This document shows, in pieces, positions 6,035 through 32,688 of a DNA stretch of 64,000 bases; positions within the stretch are counted from its first letter, which is position 1, and every line of letters starts with the position of its first letter. Origin of the DNA: Maribacter sp. 4G9. Its GTDB lineage: Bacteria; Bacteroidota; Bacteroidia; Flavobacteriales; Flavobacteriaceae. The translations under genes and the position numbers were made by a program. The stretch spans positions 1 to 64,000 of the forward strand of contig NZ_MDGL01000024.1 in the NCBI RefSeq assembly GCF_002742265.1, in the 5' to 3' direction. The notes beneath the pieces were generated by a model, which saw only the letters and a list, made by a program, of their open reading frames with translations, had not been told where the DNA came from and did not search any database.

Positions 6035-6100
6035 TCAAGTATCAAGTTCAAGATGGGTTGAGTGCAGAGTTAAGAGTGCAGAGTGCAAAGTGAAAAATGA
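6035..6100 (+). repeat. Dispersed intergenic repeat, copy B
   Basis: The gap 6029-6254 repeats the word order seen at 5107-5158. The 22-bp unit at 6035-6056 differs from copy A at one base (21/22). GAGTGCAAAGTGAAAA at 6081-6096 matches the second block with one change, and there are additional GAGTGCAGAG words between. AACCAACAAC words occur again near 6169 and 6230. This is intergenic mosaic repeat DNA and does not encode a protein. Confidence 0.75.
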
Positions 6101-6183
6101 AAAGTGAAAATGTAGATTTTACCATAAGACAAAAGCCAAAAGCTAAAACCCAAATACCAACGACCATCAACCAACAACCCTTA

Positions 6184-6227
6184 CCCTGAGCGGCCTGTGC
6201 TGAGCGGAGTCGAAGCAAGTCGAAGGG
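6184..6227 (+). repeat. CTGAGCGGAGTCGAAG-type palindromic intergenic repeat
   Basis: A GC-rich 44-bp island inside an AT-rich gap. It contains CTGAGCGG twice (6186-6193 and 6200-6207) and GTCGAAG twice (near 6209 and 6219). It begins CCCTGAG and ends CGAAGGG. Words of the type CTGAGCGnAGTCGAAGG are a familiar dispersed intergenic element in Bacteroidota genomes; that part is general knowledge, the copy number here is not known. Confidence 0.7.
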
Positions 6228-6254
6228 AACAACCAACAACCAATAGCCAAAACA

Positions 6255-6686: not shown

Positions 6687-7451
6687 TTACACCTTTTTAA
6701 CGTGCTGCAATTGACTTTTAAGTTCCTGCATGGATTCCTGTAACTGCCTTAAAAGACCGGTATCTGTGGTGGCATCCACGTTAAAGGTAATTTTACTGCT
6801 CACCTCCCAGATTTCTTGAATCAAAAAAGGCTTAATGTCATACGGTGGATAGGTTTCGTTCAAGGAAACCAAAGTAATATTGTTTGAATTTGGTCTTTTT
6901 TCAATTTTCTTGACCATAACGGAATCCTGCAAGACCACAACATATATTTTATTGGCGCTTACATGGTCAATATGTTCTACGGCCCTCGCCAACACCCACT
7001 CGCCCGGACTTAGATTGGGCAACATACTGTCACCTTCCACTTGAAAACCACGATAGGTTGCGTTCCTAAACTCTGGAATGGGCAAATCAAACGCTGGTAA
7101 TTGCTGGTACCAGCTGGTATCGGAAATATTCTGTGGATACCCCGCCGCCGCCTTGGCATTGACCAACACCATATTGTCCCGGTCGGCGCTGTCTACGGTA
7201 ACCACTTTAGGAATGACACTGATTTGGGAAGTTTCCAAATACTGGTTGTCACTTTCCCCAAATAACCACAAGGGGTTAATCTTAAACTGTTTCAGAAGCT
7301 CAGAGACCACTTTCCCGGATAGTTTGGTCCTACCCCTTTCAATATCGGCCGTGGTGTTTTTTATGCCTAGAAGCTCCGCAAACTCGGCTTGTGTATACCC
7401 TAGTTCCCTTCGTATATCTATAAATCTCTTGAGTGTCAATTCGTTTTCCAT
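6687..7451 (-). CDS. LexA/CI-like repressor: XRE HTH plus S24 autopeptidase
   Basis: A 254-residue regulator. Residues 8-60 are an XRE helix-turn-helix (RRELGYTQAEFAELLGIKNT). Residues 95-215 are an S24 LexA-type peptidase domain with a putative self-cleavage bond Ala103-Gly104 (AKAAAGY), nucleophile Ser142 in VEGDSMLPN and general base Lys181 or Lys182 in VMVKKIEK. The last 25 residues form a short coiled coil. Such proteins repress DNA-damage or phage genes and are cleaved when RecA is activated. It is divergent from a predicted DNA repair/modification pair, with operator-like repeats between them that also cover its own promoter, so autoregulation and control of the pair are likely. It could be the cell's LexA substitute or a local regulator. 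Confidence 0.88.
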   Translation of the reverse strand: MENELTLKRFIDIRRELGYTQAEFAELLGIKNTTADIERGRTKLSGKVVSELLKQFKINPLWLFGESDNQYLETSQISVIPKVVTVDSADRDNMVLVNAKAAAGYPQNISDTSWYQQLPAFDLPIPEFRNATYRGFQVEGDSMLPNLSPGEWVLARAVEHIDHVSANKIYVVVLQDSVMVKKIEKRPNSNNITLVSLNETYPPYDIKPFLIQEIWEVSSKITFNVDATTDTGLLRQLQESMQELKSQLQHVKKV

Positions 7452-7455
7452 ATAT

Positions 7456-7484
7456 CAAATATAGTCATTATGGATTATTTCCAA
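7456..7484 (-). promoter_or_regulatory. Promoter of the XRE-S24 repressor gene (near-leaderless)
   Basis: Read on the minus strand: TTG (7484-7482), 18 nt, TATATTTG (7463-7456), an exact match to the Bacteroidota TTG/TAnnTTTG consensus. The -7 box ends only 4 nt before the ATG at 7451, so the transcript should start at or within a few bases of the start codon. Operator-like site 1 (7471-7483) lies between and over the two boxes. Confidence 0.7.
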
Positions 7485-7543
7485 AATAAAATATGGATTA
7501 TTTCCATGATTAGGATTATTTCCATATTTTTGGAATAATTACA
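7471..7543. promoter_or_regulatory. Array of four operator-like 13-bp sites
   Basis: Sites: TGGATTATTTCCA at 7471-7483 and again at 7494-7506; AGGATTATTTCCA at 7512-7524; and a degenerate TGGAATAATTACA at 7531-7543. Each full site has inverted ends TGGA/TCCA around a 5-bp AT centre, as expected for a dimeric HTH repressor. Starts are 23, 18 and 19 bp apart. Site 1 covers the promoter of the repressor gene. Sites 3 and 4 flank the TATTTTTG box (7525-7532) of the divergent gene. Confidence 0.75.
7525..7532 (+). promoter_or_regulatory. -7 box of the radical SAM gene
   Basis: TATTTTTG fits TAnnTTTG and lies 19 bp before the ATG at 7552. No clear TTG sits at the right upstream distance, which would suit a weak, repressed promoter. 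It is wedged between operator-like sites 3 and 4. Confidence 0.5.
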
Positions 7544-7551
7544 AAAATGCT

Positions 7552-8811
7552 ATGGATTTTAATCGGATAAAAGAAAAGTTGAATATTCTTGCGGATGCCG
7601 CCAAGTATGATGTTTCCTGCTCCAGTAGCGGAAGTGACCGAAGAAACACGAACAAGGGACTGGGCAATGCCAGCAATGGAATCTGCCATAGCTATTCGGA
7701 GGATGGTAGGTGTATATCCCTATTAAAAATCCTATTGACTAACCATTGCATCTATGATTGTGCCTATTGCGTGACCCGTAAAAGCAACGATATCCAGAGG
7801 GCGGCCTTTAAGATCCAGGAAGTCGTAGACCTTACTATCAATTTTTATAGAAGAAATTATATAGAAGGCCTTTTTTTAAGCTCTGGAATTTTCAAGGACC
7901 CGGATTATACCATGGAACGCTTGATCGCCGTAGCCAAGAAACTACGTTTGGAGGAGAATTTTAATGGATATATCCACTTAAAGTCGATTCCCGGGGCGAG
8001 TGATGAACTCATGTATGAGGCCGGATTGTATGCGGACCGATTATCGGTTAACATTGAAATCCCCACAATATCCGGCCTTAAATTGTTGGCACCTGATAAA
8101 AAGCACGAGGATTTTGCCAAACCGATGCGCAAGGTCAAGAATGAAATTATTCGTTATAATTTGGAAAAAAAAGTACTTAAAAACACGCCAAAATATGCTC
8201 CTGCAGGCCAAAGCACCCAAATGATTGTGGGCGCTACGGGAGAATCTGATAAGGATGTGATGTACTCAGCCACCCATTTTTACAAGAATTTTCATATGAA
8301 AAGGGTCTATTATTCCGGGTATGTGCCCGTAAGCAATGATAGTCGTCTTCCTTCCATTGGTACACAAGTGCCCATGCTCAGGGAAAACAGGTTGTACCAG
8401 ACCGATTGGCTATTGCGGTTTTATGGCTTTTCCGTGCAGGAACTGCTCAATGCAGAGCATCCCAATCTGGATATGGATGTTGACCCAAAATTGAGCTGGG
8501 CCTTGCGCAACCTGCAACACTTTCCAGTAGATGTCAACAAGGCGGACATGTCCGTTTTGGCCCGTATTCCGGGAGTGGGAATGACTTCTGTCCATAAAAT
8601 CATGAAGGCCCGTAAATTCAGGAAGCTGGATTGGGACCATCTAAAAAAAATGGGCGTAGCGCTCAATAGGGCGAAGTATTTTATTCTTTGCGACTCAAGA
8701 TATTGGGAACGCAAGGATTTGGATGCGCAGCGTATTAAAGGATTGATCATAAGTACATCCTACGGAAAATTTAGACCTCAGTATTCCAATCAATTATCAC
8801 TTTTCAACTAA
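7552..8811 (+). CDS. Putative DNA modification/repair radical SAM protein (TIGR03916-like)
   Basis: A 419-residue radical SAM enzyme. The 4Fe-4S cluster motif CxxxCxxC is at Cys66, Cys70 and Cys73 (NHCIYDCAYC). It is preceded by a Cys-containing N-terminal region (Cys23, Cys45, Cys54), and a helix-hairpin-helix DNA-binding motif (LARIPGVGMTSVHKIMKAR) lies near residue 345-365. This arrangement fits the family described as 'putative DNA modification/repair radical SAM protein', normally found beside a TIGR03915-type partner, as here (12 bp downstream). Known genomic links are to the UdgX-type uracil-DNA glycosylase family. The reaction is not established; DNA base or adduct chemistry is inferred from the HhH motif and context. 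It is divergent from a LexA-like repressor. Confidence 0.88.
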   Translation: MDFNRIKEKLNILADAAKYDVSCSSSGSDRRNTNKGLGNASNGICHSYSEDGRCISLLKILLTNHCIYDCAYCVTRKSNDIQRAAFKIQEVVDLTINFYRRNYIEGLFLSSGIFKDPDYTMERLIAVAKKLRLEENFNGYIHLKSIPGASDELMYEAGLYADRLSVNIEIPTISGLKLLAPDKKHEDFAKPMRKVKNEIIRYNLEKKVLKNTPKYAPAGQSTQMIVGATGESDKDVMYSATHFYKNFHMKRVYYSGYVPVSNDSRLPSIGTQVPMLRENRLYQTDWLLRFYGFSVQELLNAEHPNLDMDVDPKLSWALRNLQHFPVDVNKADMSVLARIPGVGMTSVHKIMKARKFRKLDWDHLKKMGVALNRAKYFILCDSRYWERKDLDAQRIKGLIISTSYGKFRPQYSNQLSLFN

Positions 8812-8823
8812 AATGGTAACCTC

Positions 8824-9603
8824 ATGACAACATCCACAACAAAGACTTTTATCTATGACGGTAGCTTTAACGGTTTTCTGACCGCCGTATTTGCAGGTTT
8901 CGAACAAAAATTGCCTTTTGCCGATATTCAAAAGGAACGTTTGGTACAGAACGGGCTCTTCTCTGAAACGGAGACCATTTTTACCAATATCGATATTGCC
9001 AAAAGGGTTTGGAACGGGATTAAAAATCGAAGTAACAGTGCCATCAAGAACATTTACTTTTCCTTTTTAAGCGGGGAGAAAAACCTGGAGCCCCTACTCT
9101 ATCAATACATCCGAAAAATTATGGGTTCCAAACAAGTTGCGTCCGATTTCTCCGATGCCTGCATCCTTAAAATCAGTCAAACGGCCCAAAAGGTACAAAG
9201 GGAAAAGCACCGTATGGAGGCCTTTGTACGTTTTCAATTGACCAAGGACGGTATCTATTTTGCGAACATAGAACCTGATTATGATGTATTGCCCTTGATA
9301 TCGAGACATTTTAAAAACCGCTATGCCGACCAGTCTTGGATCATTTACGACCTAAAGCGCAACTATGGTCTTTATTACGACCTGCATGGAGTGGAAATCA
9401 TTACGATGGACCTTTCCAACGGTATTGGCAACAGTATCCAAAAAAGTGCGGCAATGACGAACGAGGAGTATGATTATCAGGATTTGTGGAACAACTATTT
9501 TAAAAGTACCAATATCAAATCCCGTATCAACAAAAAACTACATACCCAACACATACCCAAGCGATACTGGAAATACCTTAGCGAAAAGAAGGAGGCTGTT
9601 TGA
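8824..9603 (+). CDS. TIGR03915/DUF4130 partner of the radical SAM DNA repair protein
   Basis: A 259-residue protein that begins FIYDGSFNGFLTAVFAGFE, the signature N-terminus of the TIGR03915 'probable DNA metabolism protein' family (DUF4130). The rest contains the conserved helix block with QKVQREKHRMEAFVRF and a central YDLKRNYGLYYDLHGVE. In other bacteria this family is encoded next to the radical SAM gene, or fused to a uracil-DNA glycosylase domain. No glycosylase domain is present here and the protein ends at about the DUF4130 boundary. It forms a two-gene operon with the preceding gene, so both are expected to be under the divergent XRE-S24 repressor. Biochemical role unknown. Confidence 0.85.
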   Translation: MTTSTTKTFIYDGSFNGFLTAVFAGFEQKLPFADIQKERLVQNGLFSETETIFTNIDIAKRVWNGIKNRSNSAIKNIYFSFLSGEKNLEPLLYQYIRKIMGSKQVASDFSDACILKISQTAQKVQREKHRMEAFVRFQLTKDGIYFANIEPDYDVLPLISRHFKNRYADQSWIIYDLKRNYGLYYDLHGVEIITMDLSNGIGNSIQKSAAMTNEEYDYQDLWNNYFKSTNIKSRINKKLHTQHIPKRYWKYLSEKKEAV

Positions 9604-32301: not shown

Positions 32302-32688
32302 ATGCCCTATACCAAACAAATCGAGGTTACCTTAGAGGATTTGGATGACCTTAATCATGTAAACAATGTACGATACATGCAATGGATACAGGATATTTCC
32401 AAGGAGCATTGGAGAAAAAAGGCTCCTATCGAGATTCAAGAACAAGTAATTTGGGTAGTTTTAAAACACACCATTGAATATAAGTCACCTGCCTTTCTTA
32501 AAGATCCTATTCATATTTCTACCTATATTGAAAAAAGTAAGGGCGCTATTTCTACGCGAATTGTGGAAATGTTCCATGAAATAACAAATACGCTTCTTGT
32601 ACGTTCAAGTACTGAATGGTGTCTTTTAAATAAGGATACAAAAAGGCCTATGCGGATTTCAGAGGATATTCAGCAGTTGTTTTCTTAA
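32302..32688 (+). CDS. Acyl-CoA thioesterase, 4HBT hot-dog family
   Basis: A 128-residue hot-dog fold thioesterase of the 4-hydroxybenzoyl-CoA type. The active-site region is VTLEDLDDLNHVNNVRYMQW, where the catalytic Asp and the HVNN block are conserved. The rest matches the fold (VVLKHTIEYKSPAFLKD, STEWCLLNKDT). It hydrolyses acyl-CoA or acyl-ACP; chain length is unknown. It follows the glutaminyl cyclase gene with a single base between, a link seen as operon only and not explained by chemistry. Confidence 0.85.
   Translation: MPYTKQIEVTLEDLDDLNHVNNVRYMQWIQDISKEHWRKKAPIEIQEQVIWVVLKHTIEYKSPAFLKDPIHISTYIEKSKGAISTRIVEMFHEITNTLLVRSSTEWCLLNKDTKRPMRISEDIQQLFS

Follow-up and report, generated by a model that had tools for sequence, protein, structure and literature searches.

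A predicted non-canonical lexA locus in Maribacter, with a spaced operator array between the repressor gene and a divergent radical SAM–DUF4130 pair

The stretch of Maribacter sp. 4G9 DNA analysed here (the window: 64,000 nucleotides, positions 1 to 64,000 of contig NZ_MDGL01000024.1) encodes a protein that we predict to be the chromosomal SOS repressor, and its locus reads as lexA in the non-canonical Bacteroidetes sense. We propose that the repressor controls itself, a divergent pair of repair genes, dinB, a PA0069-type radical S-adenosylmethionine (SAM) gene and SRAP, with derepression triggered by RecA, and give this reading a probability of roughly 0.9. The anatomy of the locus, the repressor residues, the conservation of the sites and the other target loci are observed here; binding and induction by mitomycin come from a published relative only. 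The repressor gene and the repair pair (a radical SAM gene followed by a DUF4130 gene) diverge from a 100-bp A+T-rich intergenic region. The features of the locus are:

6687..7451, minus strand: predicted non-canonical LexA, an S24 repressor of 254 amino acids (HTH_3 and Peptidase_S24 domains; Ala103-Gly104, Ser142, Lys181), from domain matches and alignment
7456..7463, minus strand: −7 box of the repressor, TATATTTG, with O1 between the box and an upstream TTTG
7471..7483, no strand: operator O1, TGGATTATTTCCA, perfect TGGA-N5-TCCA, from the site scan
7494..7506, no strand: operator O2, TGGATTATTTCCA, perfect TGGA-N5-TCCA, from the site scan
7512..7524, no strand: operator O3, AGGATTATTTCCA, AGGA-N5-TCCA with the core GGA-N5-TCC intact, from the site scan
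7525..7532, plus strand: −7 box of the repair pair, TATTTTTG, between O3 and O4
7531..7543, no strand: imperfect operator O4, TGGAATAATTACA, TGGA-N5-TACA, from the site scan
7552..8811, plus strand: TIGR03916 radical SAM protein (rSAM_link_UDG), E 1.2e-201, 670.2 bits against a cut-off of 343.5
8824..9603, plus strand: TIGR03915/DUF4130 protein of 259 amino acids, E 4.5e-80, 268.9 bits against a cut-off of 112.25

A preliminary description of this DNA listed three strong and one weak TGGA-N5-TCCA site at spacings of 23, 18 and 19 bp. The spacing is exact (starts at 7471, 7494, 7512 and 7531) and three cores are intact, but only O1 and O2 are perfect, as O3 begins with A. Three GGA-N5-TCC sites in the 100-bp intergenic stretch, a region chosen post hoc, occurred in 0 of 20,000 dinucleotide shuffles, and two occurred in 5 of 20,000. 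Single sites are common by chance (166 TGGA-N5-TCCA genome-wide against 86 for a backward control), so clustered sites alone are used as evidence. A further site in the window, at 32564, falls inside an open reading frame (ORF). Both −7 boxes were recognized by TTTG/TAnnTTTG, which we take to be the promoter consensus. The two promoters proposed earlier, one with site 1 within it and the other with its box wedged between sites 3 and 4, were both found.

The helix-turn-helix (HTH) domain, Ala-Gly bond and Ser/Lys dyad ascribed earlier to the repressor are borne out by Pfam and by an alignment of relatives. HTH_3 (PF01381) matches the N-terminus (E 7.1e-9, 36 bits against a cut-off of 23) and Peptidase_S24 is matched with E 2.5e-13. 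Ala103-Gly104, Ser142 and Lys181 are invariant in all 45 readable rows among 47 aligned relatives. The LexA winged helix (PF01726) is absent from the Pfam matches of the repressor at E ≤ 0.001, and HTH_3 stands in its place. A search of this Maribacter genome found no second S24 protein, the repressor being the sole Peptidase_S24 match.

The locus is widely conserved in a family sample of 120 evenly drawn Flavobacteriaceae genomes. Repressor matches at E 1e-20 occur in 65 of them, 47 of which share at least 44% identity and the other 18 only about 30%. Within 400 bp upstream of the 47 closer repressor genes there is at least one GGA-N5-TCC in 46, at least two in 43 and at least three in 26; the sole gene with none is that of G089. 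A second set, the named loci, comprises the best 80 of more than 569 fetched with the DUF4130 query, near-copies included. The divergent repressor is in view at 49 of these, and 48 of the 49 keep the 22/23-18/19 array. TAnnTTTG directly follows O3 in all 48 array loci and lies between the repressor start and O1 in 47. The fourth site is an imperfect GGA-N5-TAC/ACC at +19 in 31 of them and intact at +23 in 16, and this conserved placement supports the weak O4. The operators are therefore conserved at orthologous loci in both sets, in keeping with the earlier proposal, and the lack of conservation that would have refuted that proposal was not seen.

Elsewhere in the Maribacter genome, site pairs within 30 bp give 15 rows that reduce to nine distinct pairs at eight places (backward control: one per strand). 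Five of the nine pairs, at four of the eight places, belong to the repressor locus, dinB, the PA0069-type radical SAM gene and SRAP. Pairs at exactly 19 bp precede dinB (405 amino acids, DNA polymerase IV), one of the genes before which the preliminary description suggested looking for sites, as well as the PA0069-family gene and SRAP. The module had also been described as self-contained, which the same paired sites at these three genes and the lack of any other S24 protein do not support. For these two reasons we read the repressor as the chromosomal SOS repressor. A prophage or mobile-element CI repressor controlling only its own neighbourhood would likewise carry an HTH_3 domain, which is of the CI/Cro-like type and not a LexA winged helix, and passages of PMC8565304 describe the published non-canonical family as thought to be of phage origin. 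The locus nevertheless holds its position across genera, a look through the neighbouring ORFs (by eye, with Pfam applied to the GNAT gene alone) turned up no phage genes, and the sites at three further repair loci disfavour a prophage repressor. We rejected this explanation on the cross-genus conservation and the three other loci, and consider it extremely improbable.

At the SRAP locus (L187, 2263-2864, contig C43), two small ORFs of 121 and 88 amino acids diverge from SRAP across the 19-bp GGA-N5-TCC pair. Neither has a Pfam or NCBIfam match, and they are possible new SOS genes.

Several results weigh against so broad a role for the repressor. The preliminary description expected recA in the regulon, yet the 3,963-bp recA locus contains no GGA-N5-TCC anywhere. 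The genome has two Y-family polymerase genes, and a site pair is found at the C57 gene only, with none near the second (C7). Paired sites were assigned to genes at four of the eight places, the others being C3, C8, C163 and C192. Among 29 named loci where the repair pair lies away from the repressor (excluding L255, an incomplete adjacent locus that carries the array), 28 lack GGA-N5-TCC within 250 bp upstream, so the pair is not SOS-controlled throughout the family. Only L307 has sites within that distance; in a control, one was present in 4 of 93 segments inside the gene. In the family sample, a site pair accompanies 2 of the 12 radical SAM genes that do not adjoin the repressor (2 of 5 genomes with a repressor of the close type and 0 of 7 without), and at such genes the sites follow the repressor type. 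In L307 (Salinimicrobium), G087 and G100 the radical SAM gene lies apart from the repressor but has a GGA-N5-TCC pair to itself, spaced 19 or 23 bp.

The siteless recA would fit a local autoregulator of the radical SAM–DUF4130 pair that does not respond to RecA and senses, for example, another stress. So would the arrangement of pair and repressor as divergent neighbours in 16 of the 28 genomes of the sample that have a radical SAM gene. This explanation has to contend with the invariant Ala-Gly, Ser and Lys residues, the sites at dinB and SRAP and the induction published for a relative; on these grounds we rejected a purely local autoregulator, which we judge very unlikely.

Under the SOS control that we prefer, the repressor would bind the three-to-four-site GGA-N5-TCC array and shut both its own promoter and the divergent radical SAM–DUF4130 promoter, and the same repressor would control dinB, the PA0069-type radical SAM gene and SRAP. 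Upon DNA damage, RecA filaments would trigger self-cleavage at Ala103-Gly104 and all targets would be derepressed; cleavage and induction in Maribacter are predictions. The spaced sites may be filled cooperatively. The pair may work as a single repair complex, with the DUF4130 tail docking on its radical SAM partner.

What is central here (repressor type, motif and regulon) has been published before, in PMC8565304, which largely explains the observation. That paper reports non-canonical LexA proteins in Bacteroidetes with the HTH_3 and S24 architecture, GGA-N5-TCC binding in Flavobacteriaceae confirmed by electrophoretic mobility shift assay with dyad and spacer mutants, and mitomycin C induction in S. 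agarivorans by reverse transcription quantitative PCR. It also predicts a regulon of dinB, a SplB-like radical SAM gene, SRAP and a COG1573-COG4277 operon, and recA is not induced in S. agarivorans, matching the siteless Maribacter recA (PMC8565304).

The Maribacter system shares with this group the domain architecture, the Ala-Gly, Ser and Lys residues, GGA-N5-TCC sites at the repressor's own gene, and the targets dinB, a SplB-like radical SAM gene, SRAP and the two-gene COG1573-COG4277 operon. It differs in that the operators form an array of fixed spacing between lexA and the repair pair, and that recA has no site. We take the S. of S. agarivorans to be Salegentibacter and COG4277 to be the radical SAM/HhH protein. 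Canonical LexA likewise represses the SOS genes and its own gene and has the S24 cleavage residues, but the Maribacter repressor has HTH_3 in place of the LexA winged helix, and the operator differs. Lambda CI with its tripartite right operator resembles the Maribacter system in a CI-type HTH, an S24 C-terminal domain and divergent promoters separated by several operators at set distances. Adjacent CI dimers bind cooperatively. Unlike in lambda, the regulon here is one of chromosomal repair genes, and the sites are 11-13 bp long at 22-23 and 18-19 bp.

Site spacing is quantised. Of the 77 distances between sites at the 47 repressor promoters, 30 are 18-19 bp and 33 are 22-23 bp. Outside the repressor locus, 26 of the 68 pairs listed are exactly 19 bp apart (14 genomes), at mutually non-homologous promoters; the count covers 13 of 20 genomes searched plus the window genome, and leaves out G056, G031, G100, G063, G094 and the partly listed G018. 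At least two of the 26 have GC-rich gaps and resemble chance coding matches. Under a uniform null of 1/31 per spacing, which ignores kinship between genomes, the 19-bp excess has P ~2e-21. Cooperative binding of adjacent repressor dimers is the simplest reading of the fixed spacing. The distance of 19 bp could instead reflect the room that a −7 box needs between two sites and not repressor-repressor contacts, and TAnnTTTG does sit exactly between O3 and O4 in the divergent promoter. However, among 27 pairs at 19 bp outside the repressor locus, a strict TAnnTTTG on either strand occurs in only 8 and a relaxed one in 12. As the sole cause this fit is insufficient, and we think it rather unlikely. 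The main-text passages of PMC8565304, as distinct from Table S5 of its supplement, contain no word with "cooperativ" and nothing on site-to-site spacing, and a literature search on operator spacing and LexA gave nothing relevant among the matches listed.

Both proteins of the repair pair score above curated cut-offs, which upholds the TIGR03916 and TIGR03915 identities given earlier, and PF13566 is matched in the DUF4130 protein with 181.9 bits (cut-off 27). In the 120-genome sample TIGR03916 is found in 28 genomes and TIGR03915 in 38, and all 28 carry both. The published COG1573-COG4277 operon is almost certainly this TIGR03916–TIGR03915 pair, with which the NCBIfam name rSAM_link_UDG agrees. 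The "UDG base-excision" operon, named for uracil-DNA glycosylase (UDG) and predicted to be under SOS control in passages of PMC8565304, would thus consist of the same two families as in Maribacter. In contrast to the published label, the sampled Flavobacteriaceae partner proteins lack a UDG domain. Pfam matched only DUF4130 in the window partner protein, a search that did not extend to other UDG genes of the genome. The sampled partners are 247-267 amino acids long in 28 of 28, with DUF4130 the only family matched consistently (families listed for 40 members). The structure model of the radical SAM protein is poor (mean predicted local distance difference test score, pLDDT, 57.7). A literature search by TIGR names found nothing on the TIGR03916 or TIGR03915 families, and one for COG4277 showed it only in PMC8565304 among the matches listed. 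DUF4130 is mentioned in a passage of PMC3765255.

The DUF4130 protein of the window, which is 94% identical to its M. flavus counterpart, has two parts that differ between proteins with and without a radical SAM partner:

9199..9234, plus strand: central motif REKHRMEAFVRF at residues 126-137, which is eroded in genomes lacking the radical SAM gene
9496..9591, plus strand: C-terminal tail, residues 225-256 (...QHIPKRYWKYLSEK), the most conserved part and mostly predicted disordered

Ten of the 38 genomes carry DUF4130 but no radical SAM gene; the DUF4130 gene is then always divergent from the repressor and 134-390 bp away from it, against 16 of 28 linked pairs that adjoin the repressor (Fisher 0.016, confounded by ancestry because 9 of the 10 belong to one clade). 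Among the 28 linked proteins conservation peaks at residues 225-256, with a mean identity to the window protein of 0.92 in the clade and 0.75 elsewhere; in the ten lone proteins this identity is 0.28. Over residues 1-100 the lone proteins have 0.46 identity to the window protein and the distant linked proteins 0.37. Conserved columns were chosen on the linked proteins, whose high scores arise by construction, so the informative contrast is between the N-terminal half and the tail within the lone proteins. These keep 10-15 of 15 N-terminal columns, 2-8 of 12 central ones and 1-15 of 23 C-terminal ones, the highest C-terminal count (15) being that of G026. On the repressor tree, built by a quick method and with many weak forks, the lone state requires nine changes, at least four of them forced by well-supported branches. 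AlphaFold models the body of the window's DUF4130 protein with confidence, but values fall below 50 over 231-240 and 242-259. A conserved, disordered tail that disappears with the partner suggests a docking peptide, and the tail is likely a docking element for the radical SAM enzyme.

The erosion of tail and central motif could also mean that lone DUF4130 genes are decaying, non-functional remnants. The named loci L252, L268 and L278 look like recent radical SAM losses, with tails from intact to damaged, although they are covered over ~7-11 kb only and the gene may lie elsewhere. Yet all ten lone genes are open frames of 219-257 amino acids with 33-54% identity to the window protein, they hold most N-terminal conserved columns and their operators are retained, which makes this explanation doubtful. 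L278 and L252 are apparent intermediates of tail erosion, in which PKRYWKYL reads APKRRREYL and SKRYWKYL. A new downstream partner shared by the lone genes was also considered and rejected, as none is common to all ten; uvrA (named by eye) lies downstream in 3 of 10 and a convergent 175-amino-acid ORF in 4 of 10. At L164, L168 and L169 a uvrA-like gene, again identified by eye, lies 90-168 bp downstream in the same direction, with GGA-N5-TCC in one of the three gaps.

Foldseek gave no match to the DUF4130 model at E 0.001. The best matches are the PAP phosphatase 8a8k (E 2.7e-3) and other DHH proteins, of the DHH/DHHA1 phosphoesterase kind (RecJ, Cdc45, NrnA/PAP phosphatase). VIA-align gives Z 9.3 for 8a8k and ~8 for RecJ, a level at which, by the tool's own warning, the similarity may be no more than a common arrangement. 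The titles of its top 31 rows are those of DHH-type proteins, if the CMG entries are taken to stand for Cdc45. Unlike these phosphoesterases, DUF4130 has no DHH family among the Pfam families listed for 40 members, and its profile similarity is near nil (NrnA, Prob 1-4%, with a weak local match at 227-271 of E 0.009-0.018 and Prob 3-4%; RecJ, Prob <1%).

Taken further, and more tentatively, the repressor may be a CI-like cooperative SOS repressor that reads quantised arrays (18-19 and 22-23 bp), and DUF4130 a two-part protein. Its body would be degenerate and DHH/RecJ-like with an SOS role of its own, and its disordered tail would serve solely for radical SAM docking and erode repeatedly after loss of the enzyme. 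We hold this combined view as possible rather than probable. The fixed site spacing and the DUF4130 erosion after partner loss look new, and neither was found in the passages of PMC8565304.

In a large marine group, the locus places a repair pair of undescribed function under the SOS master repressor, in what we predict to be direct control of a divergent promoter. It corrects two ideas, that of an isolated module and, for Flavobacteriaceae, that of a UDG-based pair. It makes testable whether fixed operator spacing means cooperative binding in a CI-type LexA, and which parts of DUF4130 act together with the radical SAM enzyme or independently of it.

Outside the locus, positions 6180-6230 of the window hold a short G+C-rich stretch (ctgagcggagtcgaag...) in an A+T-rich gap. 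It resembles an interspersed flavobacterial repeat and overlaps a weak tandem array at 6061-6110.

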